A stretch of DNA of 64,000 nt, from the NCBI RefSeq assembly GCF_003606345.3, contig NZ_CP031844.2:558001-622000 (forward strand). The letters are read 5' to 3'. The notes under the pieces are model-generated. The model was not told the DNA's origin. It made no database searches and saw only the letters and a program-made list of their open reading frames with translations. Numbering within the stretch: the first letter of the stretch is position 1; every line of letters starts with the position of its first letter. The position numbers and the translations under genes were made by a program. Positions 13,761 to 41,381 of the stretch are shown one piece after another. The stretch is from Bartonella krasnovii (GTDB lineage Bacteria; Pseudomonadota; Alphaproteobacteria; Rhizobiales; Rhizobiaceae).

Positions 13761-15029
<1,269 letters not shown>

Positions 15030-15143: not shown

Positions 15144-15551
15144 ATGAGAGGTACAATTATTAGTCAAGATCAAGGAACATATCTCGTTTCGGGTGATGAT
15201 GGTAAGCGTTATCAGTTTGCGACTTGGGATTGGTTGGGAAAGAAACCCCCGAGGATTGGTGATACTGTTGACTTTGTCTGCGAAGGAGGTGTCGTTAGTT
15301 CTGTTTTTCCATTGTTGAGATCAGGTACAGAAAACTCAAAAATAATGTTTGCACTCCTTTGTTGGTGTGCAGGTATTTTTGGTGTCCATCGCTTTATGGT
15401 GGGGAGAGTTCGGACGGGTGCTTTAATGCTCGTTCTATCTTTATCGGTTGCTGGATTGGTGATCACTGGTATTTGGGCAATTGTTGATTTCATACTCATT
15501 CTTGCTGGAAAATTTACGGATAAAAATGGGAATCAGATTACAGATCTGTAA
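15144..15551 (+). CDS. TM2-domain membrane protein, tandem paralogue 1
   Basis: A 135-residue protein with two parts. Residues 1-57 form a small beta-rich domain (MRGTIISQDQGTYLVSGDDG, then KRYQFATWDW and GDTVDFVCEGG) that resembles the cold-shock/OB-like N-terminal module found on some TM2 and DUF805 proteins. Residues about 68-125 are a TM2 domain with the hallmark GIFGVHRFMVGRVRTG between two hydrophobic segments and a final IWAIVDFILIL. TM2 proteins are inner-membrane proteins of unknown function. It is the shortest of three tandem copies; the hydrophobic second helix lacks the insertion seen in copies 2 and 3. A GGGATTAAG sequence precedes the ATG. Eno lies upstream. Confidence 0.85.
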   Translation: MRGTIISQDQGTYLVSGDDGKRYQFATWDWLGKKPPRIGDTVDFVCEGGVVSSVFPLLRSGTENSKIMFALLCWCAGIFGVHRFMVGRVRTGALMLVLSLSVAGLVITGIWAIVDFILILAGKFTDKNGNQITDL

Positions 15552-15941
15552 ATTTTTATAATTTATAATAAGAAGTAGATGATTTAGTTTGCTTTTTATT
15601 TTGACCAATATATTAAGTTCATCATGCCAAATTATTGTACTCTATTTCTTTAGTGTGAGATTTTAAGAAAAATATGCACAGTCAAGTAAAAGTATTGAAA
15701 AAGACTGTGCTATTTTATATGAGTAAAAAAACGACGTAAATCAACTAAGGTATGTTTTGTATTGCTGCTTATAGCAGCTGAAAACATTAGACCATTGGGG
15801 GGGATCTAAGCTATTTTAATTTCACGTTTATCACGGCTGCTACAAATTTTATTTACGCCGTTAAGTTAATCAGCATATTATCAAATTAGAAATAATCTCT
15901 TTATGAATAACACATAGAGAGCAGCTTTATAGGTGTTAAAG
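15552..15941. other. Spacer between TM2 paralogues 1 and 2
   Basis: The 390-base spacer starts with AT-rich sequence that weakly matches the sequence after TM2 paralogue 3. It then carries the decayed ftsB start described at 15695-15905, and ends with a short leader (GAATAACACATAGAGAGCAG) similar to the leader of paralogue 1. Confidence 0.65.
15695..15905 (+). pseudogene. Decayed 5' fragment of ftsB, copy 1
   Basis: About 210 bases align with the upstream region and first half of the intact ftsB at 17400. Shared blocks include GACTGTGCTATTTTAT just before the start, TTTTGTATTGCTGCTTAT versus TTTTGTACTACCGCTTAT, TAAGCTATTT, then TTTATCACGG, and GTTAAGTTAATCAGCA versus GTGAAGTTAATCAGCA. The equivalent ATG is at 15719, but the frame stops after six codons (TAA) and there are small indels. 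It is a relic left by tandem duplication of the TM2 gene together with the ftsB start. Confidence 0.8.
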
Positions 15942-16394
15942 ATGAAAGGTATGATTATTGGTCAAGATCAAGGGATGTATCTTGTTTCGGGAGATGATGG
16001 CAAACGTTATCAATTTTCGTGTGAAGATTGGTTAGGAAAAAAAGCACCAAAGGTAGGAGACACTGTTGATTTTGTGTGTGAAGGAGAGAGCATTAAGTCT
16101 GTTCTCCCTTTTGGGGATCGAACAACAATAGAACAATCGCGATTAGCTTTAGCTCTTGTTTGTTGGTTTTTTGGATGGTTGGGCATTCACCGCTTTATGG
16201 CCGGTAAAATTGCAACAGGTATAGTAATGCTTGTCTTAAGTATACTAGGTATAATAATTGGATTTTTTACTCTGGGGATCGGATTTGTTTTTTTTATTGT
16301 TTTTATAACTATGCCTTGGTCATTTATTGATTTTATAGTTATTTTATCTGGGTATTTTAGGGATGTAAATGGCAATAAAATTACAAAGTGGTAG
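15942..16394 (+). CDS. TM2-domain membrane protein, tandem paralogue 2
   Basis: A 150-residue paralogue of the genes at 15144 and 16766. The N-terminal beta-rich module (MKGMIIGQDQGMYLVSGDDG, KRYQFSCEDWLGKK, VGDTVDFVCEGE) is well kept. The TM2 domain follows with GWLGIHRFMAGKIATG. Its second hydrophobic stretch is about 15 residues longer than in paralogue 1 (SILGIIIGFFTLGIGFVFFI), before WSFIDFIVILSGYF. I chose ATG at 15942 by alignment with paralogue 1; a GTG at 15933 would add three residues. AGGTG lies eight bases before the ATG. Function unknown; presumably an inner-membrane protein. Confidence 0.83.
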   Translation: MKGMIIGQDQGMYLVSGDDGKRYQFSCEDWLGKKAPKVGDTVDFVCEGESIKSVLPFGDRTTIEQSRLALALVCWFFGWLGIHRFMAGKIATGIVMLVLSILGIIIGFFTLGIGFVFFIVFITMPWSFIDFIVILSGYFRDVNGNKITKW

Positions 16395-16765
16395 CAATCA
16401 TATAAAATTATACACAAACAAACATTTTATTTATTCTTATTAAGGTATTAATTTAATAATGTGAATTATTTAAGTATGTGTATATAATGTTAAATATTAA
16501 ATAAAATTATAAATATTTAAATAAAACTATTGAAAAAGACTGTACTATTTCATATGAAAAAAAGTAAAAGTGCAAATCGAACAGCGTGCTTTGTATTGCC
16601 ACTTATAATTGGCGGGAATTTTAAGTTGTTGGGGGATTTTAAGCTTTTTAAATTGTCATATATCACGGTGAGTGCAGATTGTACTCATGCGGTGAGGTTT
16701 ATCTAACATATGATCATATTAGAAGAAAAACTTCTTTATGAATAACAATTTTATAGGTGGTGAAG
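16395..16765. other. Spacer between TM2 paralogues 2 and 3
   Basis: The 371-base spacer opens with about 130 bases of very AT-rich sequence. It then has the second decayed ftsB start (16529-16745) and ends with CTTTATGAATAAC and a TATAGGTGG binding site before paralogue 3, closely matching the end of the spacer before paralogue 2. Confidence 0.65.
16529..16745 (+). pseudogene. Decayed 5' fragment of ftsB, copy 2
   Basis: About 215 bases are homologous to the ftsB start at 17400 and to the copy at 15695. ATTGAAAAAGACTGT is shared exactly with copy 1. The ATG equivalent is at 16554 and the frame stays open for about 50 codons, but with many replacements; it then stops where ftsB has the coiled-coil start. 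Shared ftsB blocks are TTTGTATTGCCACTTAT, TTTTAAGCT, CATATATCACGGTGAGT and CATATTAGAAG. A residual peptide (MKKSKSANRTACFVLPLIIG) could be made but looks non-functional. Confidence 0.78.
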
Positions 16766-17218
16766 ATGAAAGGTAAGATTATTAGTCAGGATCAGGGAAC
16801 ATATTTCATTTCAGGAGCTGATGGTAAGCGCTATCAGTTTGCGAATTGGGATTGGTCAGGAAAAAAGCCGCCGAAGGTTGGTGATATGGTTGATTTTGTC
16901 TGTGAAGGGGATACCGTTAAATCTATTTTCCCTATCTCGACTGAAGGTCAGTCACAACAATCAAAAGTGACGTTAGCAGTCGTTTGCTTTTTTTTGGGTG
17001 GATTGGGGATTCATCGTTTTATGGTTGGTAAAATTGTAACAGGCATTATAATGCTTCTTATAACTATAATAAGTGTAATAAGTATAATAAGTGTAATATT
17101 TATGCCGGTAGGGCTTATAGGGATTTTTTTGATAATTACACCTTGGGTATTGATTGATTTTATAGTCATTTTAACAGGAAATTTTAAGGACAAAGATGGG
17201 CATAAAATCACAAGTTAG
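16766..17218 (+). CDS. TM2-domain membrane protein, tandem paralogue 3
   Basis: A 150-residue third paralogue. The N-terminal module (MKGKIISQDQGTYFISGADG, KRYQFANWDWSGKKPPKVGD) is closer to paralogue 1 than to 2 in parts. The TM2 domain has GGLGIHRFMVGKIVTG and an Ile-rich second hydrophobic stretch with short repeats in the DNA (ATAAGTGTAATA repeated), ending WVLIDFIVILTGNF. ATG at 16766 is chosen by alignment; in-frame GTGs at 16757 and 16760 are alternatives. It is the copy next to intact ftsB and so may occupy the ancestral position. Function unknown. Confidence 0.83.
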   Translation: MKGKIISQDQGTYFISGADGKRYQFANWDWSGKKPPKVGDMVDFVCEGDTVKSIFPISTEGQSQQSKVTLAVVCFFLGGLGIHRFMVGKIVTGIIMLLITIISVISIISVIFMPVGLIGIFLIITPWVLIDFIVILTGNFKDKDGHKITS

Positions 17219-17399
17219 TGAATATCCGATTTATAATATGGAAAGTGAGGTATTCAGCTTACTTTGATTATCAAGGGGGGGATAAATTGGTAATAACAAA
17301 TTTTTTGCGTGTGTAGATTGAGTAATGAGGTGTTAATCAAAATCGTGCATAGTTAGGCAGAATATGAAGAAACTTGTGCTGTAGAGACTGTGCTATTTT

Positions 17400-17711
17400 A
17401 TGTGGACAAAGCAGAAACGTCGATCAATCAAAGTGCGTTTTGTACTACCGCTTATGACGGTGGGTGTTTTAAGCTATTTCAGTTACCATATTTATCATGG
17501 TGAGTATGGGCTATATTCACGCAGTGAAGTTAATCAGCAGATTAGTGAATTAGAAAAGGAGCTTCATAAAATAGAAGCTGAGCGGGAGTTCATTGAAAAG
17601 CGTATTTCTCTTTTACGTAATGGACATATTGAAAAGGATATGTTGGATGAATATGTCCGAAAGAATTTAAATTTTTCTAAGCCAAATGAATTGACAGTCT
17701 TAATGCCTTAA
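17400..17711 (+). CDS. ftsB: Septum formation initiator family protein (FtsB/DivIC-like)
   Basis: A 103-residue bitopic inner-membrane protein of the divisome. A basic N-terminus (WTKQKRRSIKVR) is followed by one transmembrane helix (about 13-31). A periplasmic coiled coil begins after GEYGLYSRSEVNQQI and runs through ISELEKELHKIEAEREFIEKR, ending in the family phrases LLRNGHIEKDMLDEYVRKNLNF and NELTVLMP. FtsB bridges FtsL and FtsQ in division-site assembly. Position between eno and pdhA is standard in Rhizobiales. Two decayed copies of its first half lie upstream between the TM2 genes. Confidence 0.88.
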   Translation: MWTKQKRRSIKVRFVLPLMTVGVLSYFSYHIYHGEYGLYSRSEVNQQISELEKELHKIEAEREFIEKRISLLRNGHIEKDMLDEYVRKNLNFSKPNELTVLMP

Positions 17712-36061: not shown

Positions 36062-38488
36062 ATGCAATATATTGATGAAAAGACAGGTGAGTTAAGAGAT
36101 GGGGTTTATGCTGTTTTACCTCTTCGTGATATTGTTGTCTTCCCCCATATGATTGTTCCACTTTTTGTGGGCCGCGAAAAATCAATTCGTGCTCTTGAAG
36201 AAACGATGGCGGTTGATAAGCAAATACTCTTGGTTACACAAAAAAATGCTTCTGATGATGATCCAAAATCAGAGGATATTTATCATATTGGTACATTTGC
36301 CAATATTCTCCAACTTTTAAAGCTTCCTGATGGAACAGTAAAGGTCTTGGTTGAAGGGACTGCACGTGCAAAAATTAGTCAATTTTCTTTAAGTGATGGT
36401 TACCATCAGGCTTTTGCAGCTGTTACAGAAGAACCTAGAGAGGGTGATGTCGAGATTGAAGCTCTTTCAAGGTCGGTGATTGCTTATTTTGAAAACTATG
36501 TAAAGCTTAACAAAAAAATCTCTCCTGAAGTTGTCAATGCAATAGGTCAGATTGATAATCCTTCTAAGCTTGCTGATACGATTGCCTCTCATTTGATGAT
36601 TAAACTTGCAGAAAAACAGGAAATATTAGAGCTCTTACCTGTACGAGCTCGTCTTGAGCGTGTTCTGTCTTTCATGGAAGGAGAAATTTCTGTTTTGCAG
36701 GTTGAAAAACGTATTCGTTCGCACGTGAAACGGCAAATGGAAAAAAACCAACGGGAATATTATCTCAATGAGCAAATGAAGGCTATTCAAAAAGAGTTAG
36801 GAGCAGGAGATGATAGCCGTGATGAGCTCTCTGAACTAGAAGACCGTATTAAGAGTACAAAACTTTCCAAGGAAGCGCAGGAAAAGGCTGGGGCTGAACT
36901 CAGAAAATTACGAAATATGTCTCCGATGTCCGCAGAAGCGACAGTTGTTCGTAACTATCTTGATTGGTTATTAGCAATGCCTTGGGGTAAAAAATCTAAG
37001 ATTAAAAACAATTTAGATTTTGCTGAAAAGATCATGAATAATGAACATTTTGGTCTTGAGAAAGTTAAGGAGAGAATTATTGAATATTTGGCTGTACAAA
37101 GTCGTGCGTCAAAGATAAAAGGTCCCATTATTTGTTTGTTAGGTCCTCCTGGTGTTGGGAAAACATCATTGGCGCGCTCTATTGCAAAGGCAACGGGGCG
37201 TGAATATGTTCGTATCTCATTGGGAGGTGTACGGGATGAAGCGGAAATTCGCGGGCATCGCCGCACCTATATTGGTTCGATGCCTGGAAAAATTATCCAG
37301 TCTATGAAAAAAGCAAAAAAATCTAACCCACTTTTCTTGCTTGATGAAATTGATAAAATGGGACAAGATTTTCGTGGAGATCCTTCCTCTGCTTTATTAG
37401 AAGTTCTTGATCCTGAGCAAAATGGTACATTCATTGATCACTATTTGGAAGTTGAATATGATCTTTCTGATGTTATGTTCATCACAACTGCCAATACGCT
37501 TAATATTCCAGGTCCACTAATGGATCGAATGGAAATTATTCGTATTGCAGGTTATACTGAATGTGAAAAAATGGAAATTATTAAGCAGCATCTTTTACCA
37601 AAGGCACTCAAAGACCACTGTTTGTCTAAAAGAGAACTCAGCATTTCTGATGGAGCACTAAGATCGATTATTCAGTTTTACACACGTGAAGCAGGTGTTC
37701 GTAATCTTGAGCGTGAACTCATGAAAATAGCCCGTAAATCTGTTACAAAAATTCTCAAAACGCATCAAAAGTCTGTAAAGGTTAGAGAAAGTAATCTCGA
37801 TGATTTCTTGGGTGTTAAACGCTATCATTACAATCAGATTGAAGGAGAAAATCGCATTGGTGTTGTAACAGGTCTTGCATGGACAGAAGTTGGTGGAGAG
37901 TTATTGACCATTGAAGGTGTGATGATGCCTGGCAAAGGCAAGATGACTGTAACTGGAAATTTGCGTGATATTATGAAAGAGTCTATTTCCGCGGCAGCAT
38001 CTTATGTGCGTTCTCGTGCTGTTGATTTTGGGATTGAACCTTCACTTTTTGAAAAGTGTGATATCCATGTTCATGTTCCAGAGGGAGCGACACCGAAAGA
38101 TGGACCATCTGCTGGGATTGCTATGGTGACAGCAATTGTTTCGGTCCTTACAGGGATAGCTGTGCATAAAGATATTGCAATGACTGGTGAAATTACTTTA
38201 CGTGGACGTGTTTTACCAATTGGTGGATTAAAAGAAAAACTCCTAGCTGCGCTTCGAGGAGGGATAAAAAAAGTACTTATTCCTGAAGAAAACGCAAAAG
38301 ATTTGGTTGATATTCCTGATGATGTCAAAAATAATATGGAAATTATTCCAGTAAATCATGTGAGTGAAGTTTTGAAACACGCTTTGGTTCGTTTTCCTGA
38401 CACTATTGAGTGGAAAGAACCTTCTACAGTGGCTGTCCCTATCCGGTCAGAGAACAGTGATAATGAAGGAATACAGATTGCACACTGA
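36062..38488 (+). CDS. lon: ATP-dependent protease Lon
   Basis: An 808-residue homohexameric protease degrading misfolded and regulatory proteins. The N-terminal substrate-binding domain (LPLRDIVVFPHMIVPLFVGR) is followed by a long coiled-coil region. An AAA+ module has Walker A GPPGVGKT (361-368), and a C-terminal protease domain has the Ser683-Lys726 dyad (PKDGPSAG and GGLKEKLLAA). AGAAAGGAGAG is an excellent ribosome binding site before the ATG. A CTTGAT sequence with a CCAC...CAT element about 17 bases on, near 35954, could be a heat-shock-type promoter, but I cannot confirm it. hupB follows, the standard clpP-clpX-lon-hupB order. Confidence 0.98.
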   Translation: MQYIDEKTGELRDGVYAVLPLRDIVVFPHMIVPLFVGREKSIRALEETMAVDKQILLVTQKNASDDDPKSEDIYHIGTFANILQLLKLPDGTVKVLVEGTARAKISQFSLSDGYHQAFAAVTEEPREGDVEIEALSRSVIAYFENYVKLNKKISPEVVNAIGQIDNPSKLADTIASHLMIKLAEKQEILELLPVRARLERVLSFMEGEISVLQVEKRIRSHVKRQMEKNQREYYLNEQMKAIQKELGAGDDSRDELSELEDRIKSTKLSKEAQEKAGAELRKLRNMSPMSAEATVVRNYLDWLLAMPWGKKSKIKNNLDFAEKIMNNEHFGLEKVKERIIEYLAVQSRASKIKGPIICLLGPPGVGKTSLARSIAKATGREYVRISLGGVRDEAEIRGHRRTYIGSMPGKIIQSMKKAKKSNPLFLLDEIDKMGQDFRGDPSSALLEVLDPEQNGTFIDHYLEVEYDLSDVMFITTANTLNIPGPLMDRMEIIRIAGYTECEKMEIIKQHLLPKALKDHCLSKRELSISDGALRSIIQFYTREAGVRNLERELMKIARKSVTKILKTHQKSVKVRESNLDDFLGVKRYHYNQIEGENRIGVVTGLAWTEVGGELLTIEGVMMPGKGKMTVTGNLRDIMKESISAAASYVRSRAVDFGIEPSLFEKCDIHVHVPEGATPKDGPSAGIAMVTAIVSVLTGIAVHKDIAMTGEITLRGRVLPIGGLKEKLLAALRGGIKKVLIPEENAKDLVDIPDDVKNNMEIIPVNHVSEVLKHALVRFPDTIEWKEPSTVAVPIRSENSDNEGIQIAH

Positions 38489-39046: not shown

Positions 39047-39968
39047 ACAGATATTTCTTAGACAGAGATATTGTATACGTTTTTCATATAAAAATTTTGA
39101 GTCTTTGTACCTTTTTTCTCATTTCATGAATGATTAATGTTTTTGAAAATGATTGTAAAAGTTGCATAGAATATATAGGCTTGAAGTTTATATTTTTAAC
39201 CTTTTCAATTAATATGCCATTTTAATAATGGGATATTAATAACTTGTAAAATATGAGTTAACTTTTATTACGTGGAAGGGCTAAAGAGTTTCTTCAGAAA
39301 CAACACCTATAAATAGTATAAAACAAAAAAAATCTGTTAAATGTATAAAGTCTACTATAAGCTACCGTTTTTTGCTTAATAGGGGGCTCGTTGACGGTAT
39401 TATACTACTTTTTATTTCTATAATGTGTGGTCAGCTCTCGGCATTTAAGGCCAGTGCATAAAGGATAGTTTTCTTAACTTACAATATCAGTCTCGCGCCA
39501 GTATGAGCTAGCACTTGACGGGCTAAGCAGATAGTTTTTATCTCTTGCTATAAGAGAGTCTGAAATAAAAAAATTACAATATTTAAGTTGCTCATTTAAA
39601 ATAGAAAGAGATAAATTATAATTATAAATAAAAGTACTGTAAGTTTAATTTATAAATAGATATTGTCATTTAAATAATGTAAGCGAGTATTTTTTCTTTA
39701 TTACACAAAAGTTAAAATGATAGTTTTTCATAAACATTAAGAACAAAGTCAAAAAAGAAAAAATATTAATAATGAAAGTAAAGTACTATTTTTTTATTAT
39801 TGTAATATATTTATATAATTATTTATATCTTTTACATTATTAAATAAATGCTGAAATATAAACAGAAATCTATCGATTGAGACAGTATTTTTATAAGGCT
39901 TTAGAATGTATTTTTTCACGAGCGTCATAGAAATTTGTTTAGTAGATGAAAATCGAATCATGTTTTTT
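39047..39968. other. Long gene-free spacer between hupB and trmFO
   Basis: The 922 bases are strongly AT-rich with no ORF of coding character. They include repeat family 2 copy 2 at 39307-39380 and a more GC-balanced patch at about 39425-39540 (CAGCTCTCGGCATTTAAGGC and AGTCTCGCGCCAGTATGAGC) that may be a gene relic. I could not identify a product in any frame. Confidence 0.55.
39307..39380 (+). repeat. Dispersed repeat family 2, copy 2
   Basis: It shares ATAAATAGTATAAA, AATGTATAAA, TCTA and an ACCG block with 25153-25230 in the same order. The spacing between the first two blocks differs by several bases. Confidence 0.55.
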
Positions 39969-41381
39969 TTATAAACAGGAGCTCTTTGATTCTTTATCCG
40001 CTAACCACTGAATACAATCATTGAGAGCTCTCGCTGTTATAACTTGTTTTTTTGCTAATTTTTTTTCTTTACTTGGCAAGCGTTTTCCTGAATGTTTAAG
40101 AGAATCAATAGGGGGAAAGAGGCCAAAATTGATATTCATTGGCTGAAAAGACTGTCTTTCTGCTTCTTTATCTATAATGTGTCCCCCCGTAATATGATTC
40201 AAAAGAGCTCCAAAAGCCGTGGTTTGTGGGGGGAGGCAAGGACGATTATGATGATATTCGGCAGCAGCAAAACGTCCAGCAAGAAGCCCTATAGCAGCTG
40301 ATTCTACATAGCCTTCACATCCGGTAATTTGCCCTGCAAAGCGTAGTTGTTTTTTTTGTTTTAAACGAAGGGTTTGATCAAGAATGATTGGAGAATTGAG
40401 ATAGGTATTACGGTGAAGACCACCAAGGCGTGCAAATTCCGCTTTTTCAAGACCGGGAATCATTCTGAAAATGCGAACTTGTTCTCCATATTTTAGTTTC
40501 GTTTGAAAGCCAACCATATTGTAAAGCGTTCCGAGTTTATTATCTTGGCGTAATTGAACGACAGCATAGGGTTTAACGGTAGGATTATGGGCATTTGTTA
40601 AGCCCATAGGTTTCATAGGACCGTGTCTTAAAGTTTCAAGTCCGCGCTCAGCCATAATTTCGATGGGAAGGCATCCATCAAAATAGGGTGTTTTTTCAAA
40701 ATCACGAAACTCTGTTTTCTCTGCATTTTTTAGTGTTTCAACGAATGTTTCATATTGTTCTTTGTTGAGGGGACAATTAAGATAATCCTTTCCTGTTCCC
40801 TCAGGACCAATTTTATCGTAACGAGACTGATACCAACAAATATTCATATCAATACTATCGGTATGGATAATAGGTGCAATAGCATCATAAAAAGAAAGGG
40901 CTTTTATACCGGTTATTGCTTTTAACTCTTGAGCAAGTGCAGGTGAGGTAAGGGGCCCCGTTGCAATAACAACGTGTTTCCAATCCATAGGAATCTTTTG
41001 AATTTCTTCGCGTTTGATCGTTATAAGCGAATGGTTTTCAAGTGCTGATGTCACGGTTTTTGAAAATCCATCACGATCAACAGCAAGAGCACTCCCCGCA
41101 GGGACTTTATTGGCATCAGCTGCTTTCATAATCAGAGATTTTGCTAATCGCATTTCAGCGTGTAAAAGCCCTACGGCATTTGTTGATGAATCATCAGAAC
41201 GAAAGGAGTTTGAACAAACCAGTTCTGCCAATTTATCAGTTTTATGGGCATCTGATTTTTTTTGGGGACGCATTTCATGCAAAACAACAGGAATTCCTGA
41301 TTGAGCGATTTGCCAGCTTGCTTCACACCCCGCAAGACCGCCACCGATAATATGAATTGGAGTATCAAATGTCTTTAACAT
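39969..41381 (-). CDS. trmFO: Folate-dependent tRNA (uracil-5-)-methyltransferase TrmFO
   Basis: A 470-residue flavoprotein that makes ribothymidine at position 54 of the tRNA T-loop, using methylenetetrahydrofolate and FAD/NADH. The N-terminal FAD motif is [14 protein letters not shown] (about 9-22). Typical family segments are [52 protein letters not shown] and the C-terminal [24 protein letters not shown]. Length is normal. It is transcribed alone on the minus strand, head to head with the tRNA-Leu gene. Confidence 0.96.

Follow-up and report, generated by a model that had tools for sequence, protein, structure and literature searches.

A tandem array of TM2-domain genes and ftsB fragments in Bartonella krasnovii, with apparent interspecies replacement of its middle copy

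Background

Tandem duplication that carries along a truncated neighbour gene is a known kind of event, in which a breakpoint in the flanking gene leaves pieces of it between the full copies. We describe an array of this type in Bartonella krasnovii. Within a stretch of 64,000 nucleotides (NCBI RefSeq assembly GCF_003606345.3, contig NZ_CP031844.2, positions 558,001 to 622,000; the window, whose 64-kb positions are used throughout), three genes for TM2-domain proteins lie between eno and ftsB, and here too pieces of the flanking gene stand between them. Unlike the usual case, two Bartonella lineages carry such debris from opposite sides, one from ftsB and the other from eno. A first-pass annotation made from the letters alone had noticed the array; its observation is confirmed and its interpretation partly supported below, but it missed what appears to be a recent interspecies replacement of the middle copy.

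Some cold-shock and OB-fold domains form the N-terminal part of a larger protein, in which a small membrane domain is attached to them. Public records name the relatives of the Bartonella genes TM2 domain-containing protein, NINE protein or YozV (PF05154). Unlike the TM2 family models, the Bartonella copies carry an additional, unrecognised N-terminal module, which is predicted to resemble cold-shock and OB-fold domains (PDB 2k5n, 2kcm). Exchange of alleles between Bartonella species has been described, likewise involving homologous alleles that are common to species or have moved between them (PMC3391547, PMC3610622), and recombination has been linked to a gene transfer agent (PMC3610622). 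As far as seen, however, the exchange described there concerns secretion-system and host-interaction genes, unlike the TM2 array, and a term search of PMC3610622 gave no occurrence of TM2. A literature search found no paper joining Bartonella with 'TM2 domain'.

Results and discussion

The locus reads, on the forward strand, eno, three open TM2 frames and ftsB, with an ftsB-like stretch in each spacer between TM2 genes. Copy 1 (15144..15551, 135 amino acids (aa)) holds the eno-proximal, ancestral position, copy 2 (15942..16394, 150 aa) the middle, and copy 3 (16766..17218, 150 aa) is ftsB-proximal. The copies start at ATG 15144, 15942 and 16766; the list of open reading frames begins copies 2 and 3 at a GTG 9 nucleotides (nt) 5' of the ATG. 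All three exceed the Pfam TM2 cut-off of 27.9 bits (PF05154; 49.3, 38.5 and 42.4 bits, respectively), bearing out the first-pass annotation of three paralogous genes. A source elsewhere in the genome can be ruled out, as the three TM2 matches in the genome of the window (G000) are all at this locus. Intact ftsB, the source of the relics (17400..17711, forward strand), exceeds the cut-off of the DivIC family (PF04977, 61.5 vs. 28.9 bits) and scores 22 against the NCBIfam FtsB equivalog, below the cut-off of 101.

Both spacers align with the upstream region and first half of ftsB, as the first-pass annotation had claimed. The best local alignment for spacer 1 pairs 15702-15892 with 17385-17556 at a score of 63, compared to maxima of 36 in 500 dinucleotide shuffles and 39 in 242 other pieces of the window. 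Spacer 2 pairs 16537-16724 with 17385-17555 at a score of 48, compared to maxima of 37 and 41 for shuffles and other window pieces, and the two spacers align with each other at 142. The quoted block GACTGTGCTATTTTAT is identical in spacer 1 and ftsB and GTTAAGTTAATCAGCA has one mismatch to ftsB; spacer 2 is more decayed than spacer 1. Neither finding that the first-pass annotation had named as refuting it was obtained, since the similarity exceeds chance and the genome holds no further TM2 gene. Relic 1 (15702..15925, forward strand) covers the ftsB start region to about codon 60-65, its homology seeming by eye to reach about 15925 in a multi-species alignment, and relic 2 occupies 16537..16749 on the same strand. 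Both are out of frame and no longer encode FtsB, as the spacer alignments contain frame-shifting gaps, and the single longer relic frame (58 aa, 16530-16706) has no Pfam match. At the protein level, a search returned 18 secondary partial FtsB matches in 18 Bartonella genomes.

We followed the locus through 71 Bartonella genomes using eno and ftsB as landmarks. The left landmark, at 13761..15029 on the forward strand (422 aa, from the open reading frame list), is putatively eno (enolase), following the first-pass label. The TM2 query matched in 67 of 71 genomes and ftsB in all 71. No TM2 block was present in 4 loci, one broken block in 2 and one open block in 26; two blocks were found with one open in 17 and both open in 6 (one of these being G030), and three blocks with one open in 2, two open in 3 and all open in 11. 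A block was called broken if it had no open frame over 95% of its matched length, a class that may include sequencing errors. Of the 39 loci with at least two TM2 blocks, 37 showed an ftsB relic, compared to none of the 32 with one or no block, judged against shuffles that preserve base composition only. G006 and G034 are the multi-block loci without a detected relic, and relics are weak in G022 and G033. The gappy, N-filled assembly G030 was kept in this relic count and left out of trees and copy counts. G002, G007 and G008 (L122, L106, L102) have an eno-ftsB gap of 337-398 bases and no TM2 match, and G041 and G042 each have one TM2 copy, broken. In the close genomes G060, G058 and G059 (L115, L117, L116) the eno-ftsB interval is 3.0-3.7 kb, indicating that other DNA lies in between; G059 has no TM2 match.

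In an alignment of 25 ftsB-type relic rows, drawn from 18 of the 39 multi-block genomes (the others not being included or having a broken distal copy that was omitted), we saw by eye a common junction shortly 5' of the TM2 start followed by about 190 nt of ftsB. An insertion is shared, whole or in part, by 23 of these rows and is missing by eye from G023 and G033. Copy 1 sequences roughly follow the flank tree and the distal copies form one clade by eye; in a smaller tree, a branch with support 99/98 sets the 15 distal rows apart, and the rows from the window's clade group together (100/99). Because the distal copies make up one clade with a common junction and insertion, the data fit a single early duplication that took in TM2 and about 190 nt of ftsB, followed by a second in the window's clade, which agrees with the duplicated unit proposed by the first-pass annotation. 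One origin for all multi-copy loci is ruled out by G006, where both spacers of a three-block locus match its own eno 3' end and not ftsB (scores 44 and 39 vs. maxima of 32 and 30 in 200 shuffles preserving base composition only). Copies 1 and 2 of G006 are sisters (100/99), and a tree that forces its copy 2 among the distal copies is rejected (p 0.0016). TM2 was therefore amplified at least twice, leaving debris from opposite neighbours.

Codon analyses of the open copies drew on 12 genomes from the three-copy group (11 in the case of copy 3) and five other genomes, with values that may be distorted by recombination. Omega was 0.10 for eno, 0.13 for ftsB, 0.19 for copy 1, 0.30 for copy 2 (0.27 in the nine genomes left without the replaced class described below) and 0.72 for copy 3, compared to 0.38 for the distal copy of the five other genomes. 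An interval analysis of whole open copies gave 0.27 (0.18-0.38) for copy 2 and 0.53 (0.34-0.76) for copy 3. The N-terminal module of copies 2 and 3 gave 0.20-0.27 (copy 3, 0.27, 0.14-0.51), and constraint was weakest in the membrane half of copy 3 at 0.77 (0.46-1.19), an interval that includes 1. No whole-copy or half-copy estimate exceeded 1. By these estimates the extra copies are constrained, but loosely, and the N-terminal module is conserved while the membrane part has changed more, as had been proposed.

It is quite possible, although we lean against it, that tandem copies arise and decay randomly, so that the open extras are simply not yet dead and confer no benefit of dose or diversity. 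Among 52 distal copies (G030 aside, and G006 omitted as a separate amplification) 29 are open and 23 broken, and even copy 1, open in 64 of 70 genomes, is absent in 4 and broken in 2. Random turnover would also suit the membrane half of copy 3, whose omega is compatible with neutrality, but it accounts poorly for whole open copies 2 and 3 with omega below 1 and for the low values of their N-terminal modules. It is further strained by the contrast between three-block loci, where 24 of 30 distal copies are open, and two-block loci, where only 5 of 22 are, and by a second lineage having amplified the same gene independently. The first-pass proposal that selection keeps the frames open therefore stands for the open copies, which are under purifying selection, but is not general given the broken ones, and the membrane half of copy 3 is compatible with neutrality.

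The same annotation had regarded both ftsB copies as dead, yet relic 2 seems unlike a freely decaying pseudogene. Both relics were aligned in 11 genomes; among 10 of these (G065 was omitted as a transfer recipient), with the count extended to the TM2 start, pairwise divergence was 0.191 (0.160-0.232) for relic 1 and 0.062 (0.042-0.085) for relic 2, an approximately three-fold difference. In the same genomes, synonymous divergence (dS) of eno was 0.245, all sites of ftsB codons 1-65 diverged by 0.054 and the rest of spacer 2 by 0.147; dS of copy 3 was 0.326 over codons 1-30, 0.263 over codons 1-58 and 0.180 over codons 59-150. Since dS of copy 2 mixes two allele classes, it was not used as a neutral yardstick for relic 2.

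One explanation is that the relics were retained as promoters or leaders of the downstream TM2 copies, captured from ftsB. Relic 2 evolves about as slowly as the ftsB codons from which it derives and far more slowly than synonymous sites in the first 30 codons of copy 3 or in eno, and its consensus fold is slightly more stable than those of column shuffles (z -2.4; relic 1, z -0.7). A 7-bp hairpin at 16669-16687, seen by eye in 9 of 11 genomes, shows one compensatory G-C to A-U change; intact ftsB appears by eye to carry a similar palindrome. However, relic 1 shares none of this slowness, and the low dS in the 3' half of copy 3 may mean that the slowness of relic 2 reflects in part recent shared ancestry. 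Promoter-like sites are no commoner than in shuffles (16 vs. 14.5) and an Rfam search gave no match; terminator-like sites numbered 3 vs. 1.1. Recombination inside relic 2 could also homogenise it, and G025 looks mosaic there by eye, so that recombinational homogenisation stays a rival to constraint. On balance we find promoter capture somewhat unlikely. A more ambitious reading, in which relic 2 would be a conserved non-coding leader or regulatory RNA of copy 3 and the array a set of TM2 cassettes exchanged between species so as to diversify a membrane protein that carries a cold-shock-like domain, strikes us as speculative and unlikely.

By its flanks, the nearest relative of the genome of the window is G049 (median identity 96.8% vs. 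92.4% for G066 over the windows compared). Measured in 100-nt windows, identity to G049 stays at 94-100% over eno, copy 1 and most of spacer 1, falls to 64-86% over the middle copy, and recovers to 96-100% over spacer 2 and into the 5' part of copy 3. Over the middle copy (about 15850-16510), identity to G066 is instead 90-99%. Informative sites put the change from G049 to G066 within relic 1 (between 15844 and 15856) and the return shortly ahead of relic 2 (between 16506 and 16527), delimiting a replaced segment at 15850..16510 that carries copy 2 with the allele class found in G066 and G067. The dS of the middle copy is 0.065 to G066 (eno 0.262) but 0.632 to G049 (eno 0.080), and an approximately unbiased (AU) test rejects grouping the G000 and G049 middle copies (p 8e-62), the pair having been picked after the tree was seen. 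To judge from these comparisons, the middle copy is a recent interspecies replacement by a G066-type allele.

That the middle copy is instead an old paralogue, retained by chance from an ancestor with more copies and different losses, we consider very improbable. The allele classes are indeed more divergent (dS 0.52-0.74 among the pairs listed) than eno is between the same species, G065 apart (0.62-0.64). Against such retention stand a middle-copy dS to G066 of only a quarter that of eno, and sharp breakpoints within otherwise G049-like sequence.

Replacement by transfer may not be confined to this copy. Near the 3' end of copy 3, sites in 17069-17195 favour G054 over G049 in runs of 10 and 6. 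In G065, which is related but lies outside the clade, eno and copy 1 are of another group, yet copies 2 and 3 belong with the window's clade (AU test for copy 3, p 5.5e-4; ftsB is less discriminating), and this genome seems to have gained them by transfer. Among 379 scan windows of 250 nt over 1-48751 (126 further ones had no G049 cover), there were 9 in which identity to G066 exceeded that to G049 by more than 5 points. Five of these lie at the middle copy, which only suggests that the TM2 array may be a recombination hot spot. The remaining four comprise two inside a lon-like gene and two at the end of a trmFO-like gene. In the former, 36876-37250 is 93-95% identical to G066 vs. 86% to G049 and is possibly a second interspecies import. 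At the end of the trmFO-like gene and in the adjoining spacer, 39751-40125 is 61-70% identical to G049 and 85-88% to G066.

Chance similarity in AT-rich DNA, to which the base composition of the region and the strong decay of spacer 2 might have lent some credit, is refuted almost beyond doubt by alignment scores above every shuffle and window control, by protein-level relics in 18 genomes and by relic presence that follows TM2 copy number across the genus.

The N-terminal module of the TM2 proteins spans about 58 residues and has no Pfam or NCBIfam model above cut-off. At the threshold used, two hydrophobic spans are seen in copy 1, a single long one in copy 2 and two that overlap in copy 3; the modelled membrane helices have a predicted local distance difference test (pLDDT) score of about 63-78. 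By prediction, the product consists of a cold-shock-like OB domain set on a TM2 hairpin. A PDB sequence search gave no match and a defence-system search found nothing. Within the order, matches to the TM2 protein occur in 7 of 150 genomes, own genome included, and the best of the six others is in L125. That protein (L125:1501-3027, 508 aa) has the same N module (MKG...DGRRYGF...DW...VDF) and a different hydrophobic region. The N module is thus common to different membrane proteins; because the L125 protein shares it, it provides no outgroup locus.

Conclusions

Taken as a whole, the following account is very probably correct. The comparisons show that, in the ancestor of one large Bartonella branch, a tandem duplication ran from just 5' of the TM2 start to about ftsB codon 60-65, yielding TM2, truncated ftsB, TM2 and intact ftsB; its junction may have formed by short-homology illegitimate recombination (by eye, a TTTAT-like stretch lies close to it). 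The clade of the B. krasnovii window reached three copies through a further duplication. Copy 1 remained conserved, and the extra copies were frequently lost. The window's clade retains most of them; purifying selection on these is weaker, and homologous recombination has carried them from one species to another. Of the two breakpoints of the middle-copy replacement, the first falls within relic 1 and the second shortly ahead of relic 2, and the repeated TM2 and relic sequences could have supplied the homology for later exchange and change in copy number. The products would be inner-membrane proteins, each with a predicted cold-shock-like OB domain on a TM2 hairpin, and the extra copies may raise the dose and diversify the membrane part, with less change in the OB domain.

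Events of this kind (tandem duplication with debris, decay and recombination) are ordinary; what goes beyond the routine is the replacement of the middle copy and the slow divergence of relic 2. The locus provides a multi-species record of how an array starts, takes up remains of the gene next to it, is lost by decay from most lineages, persists in one and is transferred between species. Whether an ftsB pseudogene fragment has acquired a regulatory function becomes testable, and the array points to a membrane protein, predicted to carry a cold-shock-like domain, whose gene was amplified independently in two Bartonella lineages.
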